A DNA stretch of 25,066 bases, taken from positions 1-25,066 of IMG/VR virus record IMGVR_UViG_3300020459_000065, one strand, 5' to 3'. Shown here in pieces: positions 15,916-22,149 of this stretch. Positions within the stretch are counted from its first letter, which is position 1, and every line of letters begins with the position of its first letter. The position numbers were made by a program, and so were the translations under genes. A model generated the notes under the pieces. It did not search any database. It was given only the letters and a program-made list of their open reading frames with translations, and was not told where the DNA came from. Source of the DNA: a virus.

Positions 15916-17252
15916 TTTCCTTTAGGTCCTAGAGTATCTCTGAATAGAGTTAATTTTGTATACGATCCTGAAGAATCGAATTGATGACATAATTCCTTGA
16001 TCATATATAATCCACTTTGATCTTCACTAACGTCAGTTCTTTTTTCCATATCAATTTTAGGAAATCTACATTTAATAAGAGTACCTACCCTTAAATTAGT
16101 ATTTAACGGAATTAACATAGTGGCAGTATGTGTCATCAATAAATTATATCTCATCATTGATTGAGAATGTATTTTAGTTGGATCTGCGTTTTTTGGTTTA
16201 TCTTGAACATCTTCTTTAGTTATCTTTGGAACCTTTTCCATTGTCCCAATATCCATAACAGCAGTTATATTTCTACTTGGAACATCACCTAAAGTTTTAT
16301 CATCATTCTCACTTAATGCTGGTAAACTAATTTTTTCACCCATATTTTTAGTTTTTCCTGCATAATTCTCCAATTTAAATAATCCTTTTTCTGGATTAGT
16401 ATATGTAAATGTTAATGGGTTAAAATATATTCTATGACTACAATAAGCACCCCTTTTTAATTTCTCCATCAAATCTTGATTTTTACTTGCTTGAAAACTA
16501 AGTATTTTAAAATCATTACTGGGATCATTTGCAATAACACCAGAAGAATATTCATAATCAGTTTCATATGGTTCATCATCAATTAATTGATCAATAGATT
16601 TAAAATTATATCCATCTTGTGTTTCAAAGAAAAAATATCCAGCAGTAGCATCTCCACCAGATACTGTTCCTGGAACACCTTTTGATGCTAACCACATAAG
16701 AACAGTAAATGGTTTTCTTAAATTACCAATAAACCCATATGGATTTTGAGTTTTATCACATATAACTTCCTTTTGAGTCTTCAAATACTTTTTAACTATA
16801 TCTTTAACACTGTCTGATATAGAAGATGATGCTGGATATTTTTTACCAACTCTAGAAGTCTCATTAGTAATTGCTTCTCTAGGGACCAAATTTAACATAA
16901 AGGACTCTTGTTGCTCATCAATCATTACACCAGTAACACTTTTAACATGCCAATACAATGAAGATTTTGAAAAATCCAAACCTTTATTATTATCAGAATT
17001 ACCAGCGATTTTCATAACAACTCTTTCACCACCTCTTAAAGGTAAACCATTATATATGGTGGTTAATTTACCATCCTTACCTTCTACAGTATTACCAGTA
17101 TTCACAACAAATATAGTAGCAGTTATATTAGGAGAAAATAAATCCTCAAAATAACGAATCTGAATCACACCCTGACCTATATCAACAGTCTTACTACCAT
17201 CTGCTGATTCTATTACAATTTCTTCGTAAATTGACTTATCTATTGCTGCCAT
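15912..17252 (-). CDS. 27: Baseplate hub protein, gp27-like
   Basis: A 446-residue protein. Its N-terminus (IYEEIVIESADGSKTVDIGQ, then YFEDLFSPNITATIFVVN) and the following LPLRGGERVVMKIAG have the pattern of the first domain of gp27/gpD/VgrG hub proteins, which form the pseudo-hexameric ring joining the tail tube to the spike. Mid-protein features include NPYGFIGNLRKPFTVLMWLA and a predicted domain around YFFFETQDGYNFKSIDQLID, typical of these hubs. The C-terminal section (LRVGTLIKCRFPK, GLYMIKELCHQFD, YTKLTLFRDTLG) is the last hub barrel. Length is somewhat above T4 gp27 (about 390). It directly precedes and overlaps the gp5-like gene, its expected partner, and follows tape-measure-like genes. 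The family call rests on pattern and context, so gene number is less certain than hub role. Confidence 0.7.
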   Translation of the reverse strand: MAAIDKSIYEEIVIESADGSKTVDIGQGVIQIRYFEDLFSPNITATIFVVNTGNTVEGKDGKLTTIYNGLPLRGGERVVMKIAGNSDNNKGLDFSKSSLYWHVKSVTGVMIDEQQESFMLNLVPREAITNETSRVGKKYPASSSISDSVKDIVKKYLKTQKEVICDKTQNPYGFIGNLRKPFTVLMWLASKGVPGTVSGGDATAGYFFFETQDGYNFKSIDQLIDDEPYETDYEYSSGVIANDPSNDFKILSFQASKNQDLMEKLKRGAYCSHRIYFNPLTFTYTNPEKGLFKLENYAGKTKNMGEKISLPALSENDDKTLGDVPSRNITAVMDIGTMEKVPKITKEDVQDKPKNADPTKIHSQSMMRYNLLMTHTATMLIPLNTNLRVGTLIKCRFPKIDMEKRTDVSEDQSGLYMIKELCHQFDSSGSYTKLTLFRDTLGPKGK

Positions 17253-18811
17253 TACGTAAATGCGGATTCTAATTCTTGAAGTGTTTTTATAGTACTATTT
17301 ACACTAGATCCATTAACAACAATACTTGGACCACTCTTTTTACTCTTTGTAACAACTGGAGGTTGACTAGAACCAGAAGTAGATTCAGTATTCCTTATTA
17401 TTATAGTACTTTTAGATTTTCTTTCTGGTGTAAATTTTTTACTTATACCTTCAATATCTTTAGTAAATTCCCCAATAGGAAAATCACGTAATTTATCGAA
17501 TGGTAACTTATCAATCTGATCCATAGCAGTACTTGCACCAGACATCATTTCTTCAATATTTTTTTCATTAAAACTATCTTTAAAAGCATCTAAATCTATA
17601 CTTTGTTTAGCTTGATTAAGAGCATTCATTGGAGACAATTTACCATCATTTAACATTGATAAAAATTCTTTATTTTTTTCTGCTATATTTTTTTGTATAA
17701 CAAATTCACCTTTTGTCAATTTTGCAGGAATCTGATCAATACCACCGATACCTTTAACTTCACCACCCTTATTAAACATATTAAATTCAGCTTCTTGAGA
17801 TTTATTTTCTTGTACTGCAGAATCAATCTCCTCTTGAGACAATCCTTTATCAGGATCAGGTTTTTTATTATTAGAATCTTCTTTTATAGATTCAGCATCT
17901 ATATTATTTTTCTGCCCTTCAACTTTTTGGTCATCCTTTTGATCTATAAATTCATCTTTTTTCTCTTCATCGTTACCATCTTCAGATTTATTATCCTTTT
18001 CTTTCTTTTTATTTGGAAATAAATCTAGAAAATCCCACCATTGATTTTTTACTTCTTCCTTTTCACCATCAGTAAGATTCTCTTCACCATCCACTTCACC
18101 TTCAGATTCACCTTCAGATTCACCTTCTCCTTCCCCATCATTAGGATCTGGAAACTTTGTCCATGAATAATTATTATATGCTTGCTTTGGATCATTAAAT
18201 ACATTAAAGGAATTAATAATATCTTCATTTAATGATTCAAAACCTCTTTGAATTTCATCATTAGCTTTATTAATACTATCTCTATCTTCATCAAAATTAT
18301 ATCCTCTAATCGTAGTCAAAGAATTATTCAATACTGAAGCGATTCCTTCCTTAATACCACCAATCATACTTGTAAAGTTACTCAAAATATCAATAGTATT
18401 TTTTATATTTTTAATAGTATTTTCTGTAACCTTAATTATACCTGGTAATCTAGTTACCATCCAACCAAGTATAATAATTCCAAGAAAGTCTAATATCCTT
18501 CCAAGAAATCCTCGTGTACTCTTGGTAAGAATAGAACCTTGCCTTTTAATTACACCACCTACTGTTGAAGCTTCAATTTCATCTTCTCTTTGTCTTCTTC
18601 TAACAGCCTCTCTTCTTTTTCTAAAAAATGATTGTTCTTTACTAATTAAAGATCTTTTAAACTTATTATCTTCATCAATTTGAGCATTAATTTCAGATGC
18701 TTTCTTTTGAGCACCTTTCATACCTTTAGTAAAAGACGTGACAGACTTTCTTATACTATCAATACTGATAGAAGATTTAAGTAAAGAATTTCTAACTACC
18801 TTTATAGACAT
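17252..18811 (-). CDS. Tape-measure-like tail protein with TMP C-terminal motif
   Basis: A 519-residue protein. Residues 1-100 are highly charged and helical (EINAQIDEDNKFKRSLISKE, FFRKRREAVRRRQRED), then a hydrophobic helix at about 106-127 (ILDFLGIIILGWMVTRLPGI). Residues about 223-330 are acidic, low-complexity and probably disordered (GEGEGESEGESEGEVDGEE, then many Lys/Glu/Asp). At 346-372 is FNKGGEVKGIGGIDQIPAKL followed by TKGEFVI, the GG-x-V-x-G-x-G-x2-D-x-(I/V)PA-x-LT-x-GEFV signature common in phage tail tape-measure proteins. The end is Ser/Thr-rich. I infer a component of the extended core that sits inside the tail tube and may enter the host membrane. T4 gp29 (about 590 residues) is one chain; here two successive genes share the features. 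The ATG lies one base after the upstream stop. Confidence 0.6.
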   Translation of the reverse strand: MSIKVVRNSLLKSSISIDSIRKSVTSFTKGMKGAQKKASEINAQIDEDNKFKRSLISKEQSFFRKRREAVRRRQREDEIEASTVGGVIKRQGSILTKSTRGFLGRILDFLGIIILGWMVTRLPGIIKVTENTIKNIKNTIDILSNFTSMIGGIKEGIASVLNNSLTTIRGYNFDEDRDSINKANDEIQRGFESLNEDIINSFNVFNDPKQAYNNYSWTKFPDPNDGEGEGESEGESEGEVDGEENLTDGEKEEVKNQWWDFLDLFPNKKKEKDNKSEDGNDEEKKDEFIDQKDDQKVEGQKNNIDAESIKEDSNNKKPDPDKGLSQEEIDSAVQENKSQEAEFNMFNKGGEVKGIGGIDQIPAKLTKGEFVIQKNIAEKNKEFLSMLNDGKLSPMNALNQAKQSIDLDAFKDSFNEKNIEEMMSGASTAMDQIDKLPFDKLRDFPIGEFTKDIEGISKKFTPERKSKSTIIIRNTESTSGSSQPPVVTKSKKSGPSIVVNGSSVNSTIKTLQELESAFT

Positions 18812-18812
18812 A

Positions 18813-20348
18813 TTATACTGCTACTACTCCATAGAATTTTGATGCAAGTAAAGTAGGATTATCCATATTTGAAGAAGGTATTACTGGAAGAGAATTAGCC
18901 ATATCAGTTCCAGATGATCCTGATGGTGAAGATCCACCACTTTGAGTATTAGTAGTACTCATATCAAGTATATTTGGAGATGGTTCTTCTAAAGAAGATA
19001 TATTTTCTGCAACATTAACTTCCTTTTTCTTACCTTCAAATAAATCTCCCCTCTTATCAAAATCTGTCACACCAAAAGTTGCAAAGTCAGCTAAACCAGC
19101 AAGACCTCTCATAAAACCTTTAGGTTTTTCCTCCTCTATAGGACTAAACGCAGATGGCATTATATTTTCTCTTCCACCTGCATTTTGTATTATTTGTTCC
19201 TTGTCTGCTTCTGATAGAGATTCTTCTGAACCATTTTGAATATCCGTACCTTCCTTCTGAGTTCCTACGAACATACCTGTTATACCTTTTACAGCTTCAA
19301 AAGCAAACCAAGATTGTAAAAATTTACCTATTGGTCCTGCTTTACTTACATTCTGAACAATAATCCATGCTGTGGTTCCTGCACCACTTTTAATAATTGC
19401 AGGTCCTGCAGGTTCACCACCTAAAATATCAATTCCTGCATCTAAAGTACCAGCAGTAAGACCACCACCTGTTGTAAGACCACCCTTTGGAGTTGGTGTT
19501 TGTCCACTACCCTTTCCTTTACCAAAACCAAATAATCCTGCTAATGTCTTAAGAATACCACCAGAACCAATTTTAGCACCAGCACTAACAGTTGTCTTAA
19601 CTATTTTTCCACCAGCAGCAGCATATATTGCATTCCATGCTACTTGTGCTGCTTTACCGAAAAGACTTGTTAAAGCCTTTATCGGTTTCATTATCATATT
19701 ATTACCAATAACCCTGAAAATAGTACCAGCTATTCCAGTCAATACTCGTACTAATCCAGTTATAGCTAATTTAACACCAAGAAATATACCAGTAAGAGTT
19801 AATAAACCACCAATGACACCATCACGAATCTGATTCATTAAATCAATATTTCCATCAGATTTTGCTTTTAACCATTGAACTAATTTAGTACCTAACCATC
19901 CACCAACTATCTGTGTAAAAGCAGTAGCTAATCTACCTAAAGTAAATTGAGCCTTCTGTCCGATTGCTTCAACAGGTTTCATCAAAGAACTTTGTATTCT
20001 TCTCTCTACTGCACTTTCCTTACCTTCTCTTAATCCTTGTTCTGCTAATTGTGCTTCTCTAGCCTGTTCAGCAGCAGCTCTTTGTCTATCTAACTGTGAT
20101 TGAAGTGCTAGATTGCTCTGTATATTAGATAATGAAAAATTTAATTGTCCAATTTGTTGAGATATTGATGCTAATTGTCCAGAAACTGACGATAATACAG
20201 ATGTATTCTGACTTATTAAACTAGTTGTTTGTGGATCTGGTTGAGTAACAGCAGGAGTTGGGGCACCACCACCAGCAAAGACACTAGAAGAAACTGTTCT
20301 TCTAACTGCCTGTATTCCTCCTGATATTGGTGATTGTATCTCAGCCAT
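18813..20348 (-). CDS. Tape-measure-like tail core protein
   Basis: A 511-residue protein. Residues about 40-125 form a Gln/Ala/Leu-rich coiled coil (SGQLASISQQIGQLNFSLSN, then RQRAAAEQAREAQLAEQG). Residues about 135-215 contain amphipathic and strongly hydrophobic helices, including GGLLTLTGIFLGVKLAITGL at about 175-195. A Gly-rich middle (GFGKGKGSGQTPTPKGG, GGGLTAGTLDAGIDILGG) follows, and a Ser-rich disordered tail ends SKFYGVVAV. Coiled coil plus membrane-active helices, together with position just after the tail-chaperone pair and before the hub, point to a tape-measure or tail-core protein. Its start overlaps the 59-codon ORF by 8 bases (ATGGCTGA), implying translational coupling. Whether it or the next gene, or both, sets tail length cannot be judged from sequence alone. 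Confidence 0.55.
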   Translation of the reverse strand: MAEIQSPISGGIQAVRRTVSSSVFAGGGAPTPAVTQPDPQTTSLISQNTSVLSSVSGQLASISQQIGQLNFSLSNIQSNLALQSQLDRQRAAAEQAREAQLAEQGLREGKESAVERRIQSSLMKPVEAIGQKAQFTLGRLATAFTQIVGGWLGTKLVQWLKAKSDGNIDLMNQIRDGVIGGLLTLTGIFLGVKLAITGLVRVLTGIAGTIFRVIGNNMIMKPIKALTSLFGKAAQVAWNAIYAAAGGKIVKTTVSAGAKIGSGGILKTLAGLFGFGKGKGSGQTPTPKGGLTTGGGLTAGTLDAGIDILGGEPAGPAIIKSGAGTTAWIIVQNVSKAGPIGKFLQSWFAFEAVKGITGMFVGTQKEGTDIQNGSEESLSEADKEQIIQNAGGRENIMPSAFSPIEEEKPKGFMRGLAGLADFATFGVTDFDKRGDLFEGKKKEVNVAENISSLEEPSPNILDMSTTNTQSGGSSPSGSSGTDMANSLPVIPSSNMDNPTLLASKFYGVVAV

Positions 20349-20520
20349 TGTTTGCTTGTTGTGCTTTTAAATTTTCCTCCTCAATATACTGTTGTAGAAG
20401 AGAAAGGTAAATTTCTCTTTCCCACGGGATCATATTTTCTAGCTCTGTCAAGCTATATTTATGATGTTGCATCAAGGCAAAATTAATTTTATAGTATGAC
20501 TCAAGATCCTCATGAGACAT
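20341..20520 (-). CDS. 59-codon ORF, candidate frameshifted extension of gp26 (gene 51 position)
   Basis: A short ORF beginning ATG 20520-20518 and ending TGA 20343-20341. It encodes 59 residues, predicted helical: MSHEDLESYYKINFALMQHH, then KYSLTELENMIPWEREIYLS, ending in a Gln/Glu-rich tail. An IPW-x-R-x2-Y-type motif like this appears in small proteins beside tail assembly genes. It occupies the place of T4 gene 51 (order 26-51-27) but is far shorter than T4 gp51, so equivalence is positional only. No good ribosome binding site lies at the usual distance from its ATG, and the ATG falls within a stem-loop. It is in the -1 frame relative to gene 26, and a slippery site precedes it, so it may be made mainly as a gp26 fusion of about 300 residues. 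Confidence 0.75.
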   Translation of the reverse strand: MSHEDLESYYKINFALMQHHKYSLTELENMIPWEREIYLSLLQQYIEEENLKAQQANNG

Positions 20521-20550
20521 ACTTACCCGAAAAAACTTTGCAAACCCTCC
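20493..20550 (-). promoter_or_regulatory. Predicted -1 programmed ribosomal frameshift signal (gene 26 to 59-codon ORF)
   Basis: Reading the minus strand: GGAGGG (20550-20545), a 9-base spacer, the heptamer T_TTT_TTC (20535-20529) in the correct X_XXY_YYZ phase for gene 26, a 5-base spacer (GGGTA), then a stem-loop (20523-20493) of AGTATG/CATACT plus CTCA/TGAG separated by one T-T mismatch, with a 9-base loop. The zero frame stops two codons after the heptamer; after a -1 slip the ribosome reads Arg-Val-Ser and then the 59-codon ORF in frame. This has all three parts of a bacterial -1 signal of the dnaX type. Function is predicted, not shown. Confidence 0.7.
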
Positions 20551-21242
20551 AAAACAACTTCACTTTCAACCTTTGTATTGGGATTTATAATTTTAATTTT
20601 ATGAGATAGTTTAGGCATAGTCTCAAAGAAAGATTCAATTTCTTTAAATTGTTTGGAATTTAATTGTTCCACAAATTGAGATAATTCTTTTTTTGTACAA
20701 TCAGATGAATTCCAAGATTCCTCTTCAGAATAAACTTGTTCAATACAAGAAGCAATCAAATCAAAAGTATCATCAACATTAATATCACCAGCCGTAGAAA
20801 AATTATTTTTAATAAATTCATCTAATGATGGATATTTCATTCTTAAAGTATAATCATTATCCAATTTAATATCTCTATTATGATTATCACCTATTTCAAT
20901 TTTTATATCATCTAAATTAATAAGAGTTGGAACTTGTGTTTTTCCATCATCTGGACAAGTAACCATAACTTCAACATCTTCACCGATAGATTTTCCTCTA
21001 ATATTAAGAAAAAGATATTCAATATCAAAAGTTGATAATTTTTCTACTTTAATTCCTCTAGATAGAATGCAATTTGAAATAACATCTTTTACTGCATTAG
21101 CAATTTGAGTAGTGTCTTGACTCTCCATTGCTAATATTAAAATCTTTTCTTCTTTTACAAGAAATGGTCTAAACTTAACCTTCTTTTTAGAAGATGGTAT
21201 AACCAACTCATAAGAAGGTGTTGCAATTTTTGGTAAAGGCAT
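20523..21242 (-). CDS. 26: Baseplate hub assembly protein gp26-like
   Basis: A 239-residue protein matching the T4 gp26 / T4 base-plate family: it opens MPLPKIATPSYELVIPSSKK, then KVKFRPFLVKEEKILILAME, the usual conserved block, followed by VISNCILSRGIKVEKLSTFD and the (I/V)EYLFLNIRGKSIGE block, a CPDDGK-type strand, MKYPSLDEF, and a helical C-terminus with FFETMPKLSHKI. T4 gp26 is about 208 residues. In T4 it is needed for hub assembly, and members resemble tail-assembly chaperones. The reading frame ends in a T6C run and stops two codons later; see the frameshift signal at 20493-20550. A TATAAATT late-promoter-like box lies 21 bases before the ATG. Confidence 0.85.
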   Translation of the reverse strand: MPLPKIATPSYELVIPSSKKKVKFRPFLVKEEKILILAMESQDTTQIANAVKDVISNCILSRGIKVEKLSTFDIEYLFLNIRGKSIGEDVEVMVTCPDDGKTQVPTLINLDDIKIEIGDNHNRDIKLDNDYTLRMKYPSLDEFIKNNFSTAGDINVDDTFDLIASCIEQVYSEEESWNSSDCTKKELSQFVEQLNSKQFKEIESFFETMPKLSHKIKIINPNTKVESEVVLEGLQSFFG

Positions 21243-21288: not shown

Positions 21289-22149
21289 TTAAATTTTATA
21301 AGATGAGATAACATCCCCAGAAATAGGTCTATCATTCCAAAAATTATCATTAAGATATTGTGGAACTTTTATTCCTGTATCTGTTAAAGATGAAACTTTG
21401 TTCCAGGGAACTTTAGATTCTGAAGGAGGTTTATCATAAACTCCAGGATCATTTAACTTATTATAATTAAGAGATGTCTTCTTCTCTAATGTACTTTTTT
21501 CTCTAGTACCAGCATAACTATTAAGATCAATCATTTTATCTCTTTCTAATGAAGTAGTTCCACCAGCAACATATCTATCATAACTAAATGAACAAGTTGC
21601 TTTTAAGACTTGAGAATTTTGATATTGTACTCTGGTTGAACTTAAATTCATTGGAAATAAACCAATAAATTTATATTCCATATATTGTCTATAATTCTTT
21701 TCAAATTTAATTATTCTAGTTTCATTTGACTTATATTCTTCAGGATATCTCATTCTAAAATAATAATTCTCATCACCAGGATATTCCTGTCCACCATCAG
21801 AAATATAATCCATCCAATGTTCCAGGAACTTTAATGATTTATATCCATTATCAACATAAAACTCTAGTTGAATTTGAGTAAATATTCTAGTATGTGCCAT
21901 CTGCTCAACAACACCCTGATAATCACCTTGTGCTGGAATATTTGCTAAACTACTTCCAGGTAATGATGCACCAGAACAAAGTAATCCAATAGTCTCAAGA
22001 CTAAATCTAGTATCAACACCTTTAGCTCTTAAATGATCCCTCAAACTACTAGCAGGTAATCCAAATTGAACAGAATAATGTGATGTTTGAGCAACATTTT
22101 GAAATGTTGGTAGAATCTGCGATATTTTCTTCGGTATCGGTCTACGCAC
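21289..22149 (-). CDS. 54: Tail-tube initiator, gp54-like
   Basis: A 286-residue protein with the pattern of the T4 gp19/gp54 tube fold: HYSVQFGLPASSLRDHL near residue 25, LLCSGASLPGSSLAN near 60, then FTQIQLEFYVDNGYKSLKFL near 110, HWMDYISDG, and YKFIGLFPMNLSSTRVQYQN leading into LKATCSFSYDRYVAG at about 165-210. In T4 gp54 sits on the hub and nucleates tube polymerisation. Length and the extended C-terminus (about 220-286, Lys/Ser/Pro-rich) suit an initiator better than the shorter gp19 tube protein, though a tube paralogue cannot be excluded. The start is GTG at 22149-22147: an in-frame TAA lies four codons upstream and no other early start is present. A CTAAATA box lies 29 bases before it. 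Confidence 0.7.
   Translation of the reverse strand: MRRPIPKKISQILPTFQNVAQTSHYSVQFGLPASSLRDHLRAKGVDTRFSLETIGLLCSGASLPGSSLANIPAQGDYQGVVEQMAHTRIFTQIQLEFYVDNGYKSLKFLEHWMDYISDGGQEYPGDENYYFRMRYPEEYKSNETRIIKFEKNYRQYMEYKFIGLFPMNLSSTRVQYQNSQVLKATCSFSYDRYVAGGTTSLERDKMIDLNSYAGTREKSTLEKKTSLNYNKLNDPGVYDKPPSESKVPWNKVSSLTDTGIKVPQYLNDNFWNDRPISGDVISSYKI

Follow-up and report, generated by a model that had tools for sequence, protein, structure and literature searches.

Does the marine T4-like phage represented by the window (the whole stretch of DNA analysed, a virus record of 25,066 bases) make two tail assembly chaperones from one gene? The preliminary description of this stretch had read the end of gene 26 as a -1 frameshift site that yields G/GT-type chaperones at the gp26/gp51 position, and comparison with relatives supports that reading. 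We are highly confident, judging from sequence comparison, that a -1 frameshift close to the 3' terminus of gene 26 makes a short and a long chaperone: the heptamer is nearly universal, the -1 phase is fixed, start codons for a separate downstream gene are often missing, a stem covaries, and T4 gp51 corresponds to the whole predicted fusion.

Gene 26 lies on the minus strand and ends in the codons GAG GGT TTG CAA AGT TTT TTC GGG TAA (Table 1). The heptamer T_TTT_TTC had been described as standing in gene 26 phase two codons before the stop. The motif and its phase match the bases exactly, and its nearness to the stop stands, but it ends only one codon (GGG) before the TAA. It has the X_XXY_YYZ form of slippery heptamers, read in the 0 frame, and a -1 frame overlaps it. 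The GGAGGG 9 nt upstream is where it was said to be. A -1 slip would read Arg-Val-Ser-Met and continue through the whole 59-codon ORF, whose ATG lies 2 nt past the gene 26 stop, and the product, estimated beforehand at about 300 residues, was computed as 300. The window's one other in-phase T6 heptamer falls midway along another gene. Gene 26 also has an in-phase slippery run of A_AAA_AAA at about 20688-20694 on the minus strand, 165 nt before the gene end.

Table 1. Features at and around the 3' end of gene 26 in the window
Feature	Position	Strand	Basis
Tail-tube gene, directly upstream of gene 26	21289-22149	-	Phage_TTP_2
Gene 26, coding for TAC-N, the short tail assembly chaperone (239 aa)	20523-21242	-	PF12322, phrog_150, T4 gp26 alignment, predicted fold
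Internal GGAGGG resembling a Shine-Dalgarno sequence, 9 nt upstream of the heptamer	20545-20550	-	codon bias, anti-SD match
Slippery heptamer T_TTT_TTC, in gene 26 phase	20529-20535	-	conserved as T_TTT_TTN (248/249 distinct loci; each of 153 clusters)
TAA that ends gene 26, with GGG between it and the heptamer	20523-20525	-	
Downstream stem-loop (arms 20523-20513 and 20503-20493; T-T mismatch 20517/20499)	20493-20523	-	folding energy, covariation
Extension in the -1 frame, 62 aa: predicted gp51-type C-terminal domain of TAC-NC	20344-20529	-	phrog_634, 46-lineage alignment, helical model
Stop codon of the -1-frame extension	20341-20343	-	
59-codon ORF as gene prediction would give it, ATG inside the 5' arm of the stem	20341-20520	-	
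511-codon gene, tape-measure candidate	18813-20348	-	position
Adjacent gene, tape-measure candidate	17252-18811	-	position

The two parts of the predicted fusion have clear family assignments. The gene 26 product matches PF12322 (E 2e-76) and phrog_150 (E 5.6e-83), and T4 gp26 aligns with it over model columns 8-239. The extension, and with it the small ORF, belongs to the gp51 family (phrog_634, E 3.9e-29). The gp26 profile phrog_150 itself continues into the small ORF (profile positions 238-278), as would be expected if some members of that family are natural fusions. Across the junction, T4 gp51 aligns with the full length of the predicted fusion (columns 1-292), as does Aeromonas gp51; the C-terminus of the T4 protein matches the -1-frame extension, and the T4 protein matches phrog_150 over profile positions 13-280. 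The short and long forms would share their N-terminus through the predicted shift, and T4 gp51 spans that whole fusion by itself. There are two gp26-like places in the T4 genome and one each in those of KVP40 and Stenotrophomonas phage BUCT608.

Structure prediction is consistent with these assignments. We folded gp26 and the extension apart, since short extension rows misaligned against full-length proteins. The gp26 model (pLDDT 92.5) resembles solved tail assembly chaperones: its top three fold matches were HK97 gp13 (2ob9), 3fgx and YqbN (3klu), at Z 7.3-7.9, a match that covers only the first ~96 residues at Z below 8, against 2.6 or less for unrelated rows. A Foldseek search with the gp26 model returned no significant E-values, and the sequence search for solved structures found none that was relevant. 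The extension is modelled as helical (pLDDT 81).

Gene 26 sits between the tail-tube gene and the 511-codon gene. The latter and its neighbour are adjacent genes of ~515 codons each, with hydrophobic stretches and without a good family match; for the 511-aa product downstream of gene 26, Pfam-type and phrog profiles gave no match. By their position, both genes are candidates for the tape-measure gene.

To assess whether the slip site is conserved, we scanned IMG/VR with five gp26 queries (from the window, P-SSM4, phiM7, KVP40 and Melnitz) and added isolate records. Together these yielded 321 loci (249 distinct) in which the gene end could be read, all selected on gp26 homology and not on the site. 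They fall into 153 clusters of loci below 90% identity and 46 below 70% identity. The alignment across relatives that the preliminary description had called for bears out two of its three expectations, for a heptamer of the form T_TTT_TTN stands in phase at or near the gene end, with the downstream frame at -1, in 248 of the 249 distinct loci, and the heptamer is present in all 153 clusters. It is TTTTTTC in 126 clusters, TTTTTTT in 15, TTTTTTA in 11 and TTTTTTG in one; the stop follows after one codon in 128 clusters and directly in 20. The third expectation, an upstream GGAGG, was borne out as a frequent element but not as a near-universal one, GAGGG or GGAGG being found 9-10 nt before the heptamer in 109 of the 153 clusters.

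The amino acids encoded at the site are less constant than the bases. The codon before TTT is AGT, TCT, AAT, GCT, GAT, ACT or CAT, so that the residue varies among Ser, Asn, Ala, Asp, Thr and His while the codon ends in T in all 153 clusters. Elsewhere in the same genes, 61% of such codons end in T, and if the 46 clusters below 70% identity are treated as independent, the chance that all of them would do so here is about 1 in 10^10. The second slip codon likewise switches between Phe and Leu (TTC, TTT, TTA, TTG), and the heptamer remains slippery. Bases that are kept while amino acids change are as expected for a slip site, and the conservation of this putative one at the nucleotide level exceeds what the amino acids need.

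We next considered the elements on either side of the heptamer. The Glu codon within the Shine-Dalgarno-like element is GAG in 109 cases and GAA in 28, against 1039 GAG and 2418 GAA elsewhere, and the longest match to the anti-SD is at least 4 nt at 95% of sites versus 24% of background. A conserved Glu-Gly forces part of this likeness to a Shine-Dalgarno sequence; the choice among synonymous codons is not so forced. Downstream, the window's stem consists of 6+4 bp with one T-T mismatch and begins 5 nt past the heptamer, with a minimum free energy of -12.2 versus -4.1 for synonymous shuffles. Across 75 relatives from the window's clade, 93.6% of the stem cells are paired, compared with 47% or less in slid controls, and 35 cells carry double changes versus 12 in shuffles. 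One pair alternates between U-A (39), G-C (18) and A-U (12), another goes from C-G to U-A, and the position of the window's T-T mismatch is G-U in most relatives. Covariation thus supports a predicted stem within the window's own clade.

The 10-bp stem of the preliminary description is therefore found in the window but does not extend to the family, and most distant clades lack it. A hairpin common to the whole family was rejected: among the 68 clusters that have no early ATG, only 38% of cells can pair as in the window's stem, and across the 46 diverse clusters the site shows just a slight excess of structure over gene-body controls (mean z -1.17 versus -0.45). This weak structure limits the hairpin claim to one clade.

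Could the same region instead encode two separate proteins? Under this alternative, translation of gp26 ends at its TAA and starts again at the ATG two bases on, yielding a free 59-aa protein. Stop and start are close enough for coupled re-initiation, and in 89 of the 153 clusters, as in the window, the extension has an ATG among its first 14 codons. In the other 64 there is no ATG in those codons, and there the extension can hardly be a separate gene; in 43 of the 153 there is no ATG, GTG or TTG. The isolate S-CAM8 is an example of an extension without an early ATG. Still, an alignment of 46 lineages shows the frame to be conserved from the slip site onward. The GGAGGG is moreover too far upstream to serve the ATG of the 59-codon ORF, that ATG sits within the covarying stem, and separate translation would leave the conserved heptamer unexplained. 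We regard two separate proteins as very improbable, although the ATG of the window may give some free product by re-initiation.

A frameshift could also arise before translation, if RNA polymerase added or dropped a base in the T run and so produced mRNAs with a fused frame. The run is indeed conserved, and some lineages have T7 or T8, but 138 of the 153 runs have only six T, which is short for slippage by a bacterial polymerase. The run also always falls as T_TTT_TTN relative to the codons, a register that matters to ribosomes and not to a polymerase, and the Shine-Dalgarno bias and the RNA stem both point to the ribosome, so that we consider transcriptional slippage very improbable. As for a sequencing or assembly error that split one continuous gene, the site is a homopolymer, and a single contig (L140, IMG/VR 3300049043_000112) has a fused frame, in which a 2-nt deletion in the slip site creates an in-frame gp26-gp51 fusion. 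That fusion is itself possibly a sequencing error; no second gp26 copy was found in the contig's 236-kb record. The same split, however, recurs in 248 distinct loci, and isolates sequenced in separate studies carry it as well, which already refutes this explanation and leaves it a negligible probability.

The ribosomal -1 shift, by comparison, would apply to a wide range of phages. Isolates with the site belong to Kyanoviridae, Emdodecavirus, Pootjesviridae, Menderavirus, Otagovirus, Chakrabartyvirus and Eurybiavirus, and the site is also present in Straboviridae (KVP40, Ceceduovirus). Their hosts include cyanobacteria, Methylophilales, Sinorhizobium, Agrobacterium, Pseudomonas, Stenotrophomonas, Aeromonas and Vibrio. 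The preliminary description had held that relatives without the slippery run would speak against the shift; 248 of 249 distinct loci keep T_TTT_TTN, and Vibrio phage K362 (L332, about 2190-2400) lacks it. Its downstream frame is still in -1 phase, the stop codon overlaps the start codon (TAATG), and the gp51-domain profile found no match in the genome. The overlap is possibly a change to coupled initiation.

What we infer, namely the slipping itself, its rate and its role in tail assembly, can be put as follows. Gene 26 would encode the short chaperone TAC-N. Some ribosomes on UUU-UUC would slip back one base at U_UUU_UUC, miss the gene 26 stop and go on to translate the gp51-type domain, giving the long chaperone TAC-NC of 300 aa. 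In the window's clade, slipping is probably made more frequent by the GGAGGG 9 nt upstream and the stem 5 nt downstream. Like gpG and gpGT of lambda, the two chaperones probably coat the tape-measure protein and bring in subunits of the tail tube.

The proposed arrangement recalls several known systems. With lambda G/GT it would share a -1 shift in the last part of the short gene, here just ahead of the candidate tape-measure genes, that yields a short and a long chaperone with the same two-domain logic. The lambda heptamer is GGGAAAG, unlike the T_TTT_TTN found here, where the sequence family is PF12322, a Shine-Dalgarno-like element is added and, in the window's clade, a covarying stem as well. 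The E. coli dnaX signal consists of an upstream Shine-Dalgarno-like element, a slippery heptamer and a downstream hairpin, and the elements of the window stand in the same order; dnaX differs in its heptamer (A_AAA_AAG), in being a DNA polymerase gene and in that its shift shortens the product. T4 has homologs of both predicted products, gp26 of the short one and gp51 of the entire fusion, but encodes them in two separate genes on opposite strands where a frameshift is predicted here.

According to a review, long-tailed phages "except T4" conserve the G-T frameshift (PMC5009743), and the PRFect paper reports that in some T4-like phages a short gene stands beside a long fusion gene instead (PMC10885494). 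Our search of the literature for frameshifting in connection with gp26, gp51 or cyanophages turned up no account of it. Vladimirov et al. 2022 (10.1016/j.virol.2021.11.003) reportedly identified the T4-like chaperone genes, in a paper whose title proposes a mechanism other than frameshifting. PMC12846349, in its passages on chaperone genes, cites that work when it mentions poly-T -1 signals in the TAC-N genes of T4-like phages. The preliminary description, which knew of no account of frameshifting in T4-like phages, therefore put the case too strongly, and the idea appears to be at least partly published. The locus of phage Adele (Vandenendeviridae/Andersonviridae) treated in the same passages resembles our case in having a poly-T -1 shift from the end of TAC-N into a C-terminal domain in the -1 frame, argued from conservation; it differs in the motif, GTTTTT, and in the phage family, and for this locus those passages describe no covariation of a stem or Shine-Dalgarno element (PMC12846349). 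Base-pair covariation, the losses of start codons and the breadth across lineages may be additional to the published work.

Most T4-like lineages examined, KVP40 and Ceceduovirus included, keep what appears to be a G-T-type frameshift, which makes T4 look like an exception in its own group. We lean slightly toward a history in which the shift was ancestral in T4-like phages and the separate gp26 and gp51 of T4 were a later replacement, and in which the coevolving stem of the marine clade tunes the level of slipping and covers the ATG, leaving the fusion as the sole product of the downstream frame. The covarying stem, together with natural sites that have or lack the stem or the Shine-Dalgarno-like element, offers ready material for measuring what determines the ratio of the two chaperones.

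The predicted shift also bears on annotation. In many cyanophage records, gp51 is annotated as separate or truncated, or is missed, though it would be the C-terminal part of a fusion. The gp51 extension is unannotated in the GenBank records of S-CAM1, S-CAM4, ACG-2014d, ACG-2014i and metaG-MbCM1, and those of C48C1 and Melnitz annotate it as starting within the conserved domain.
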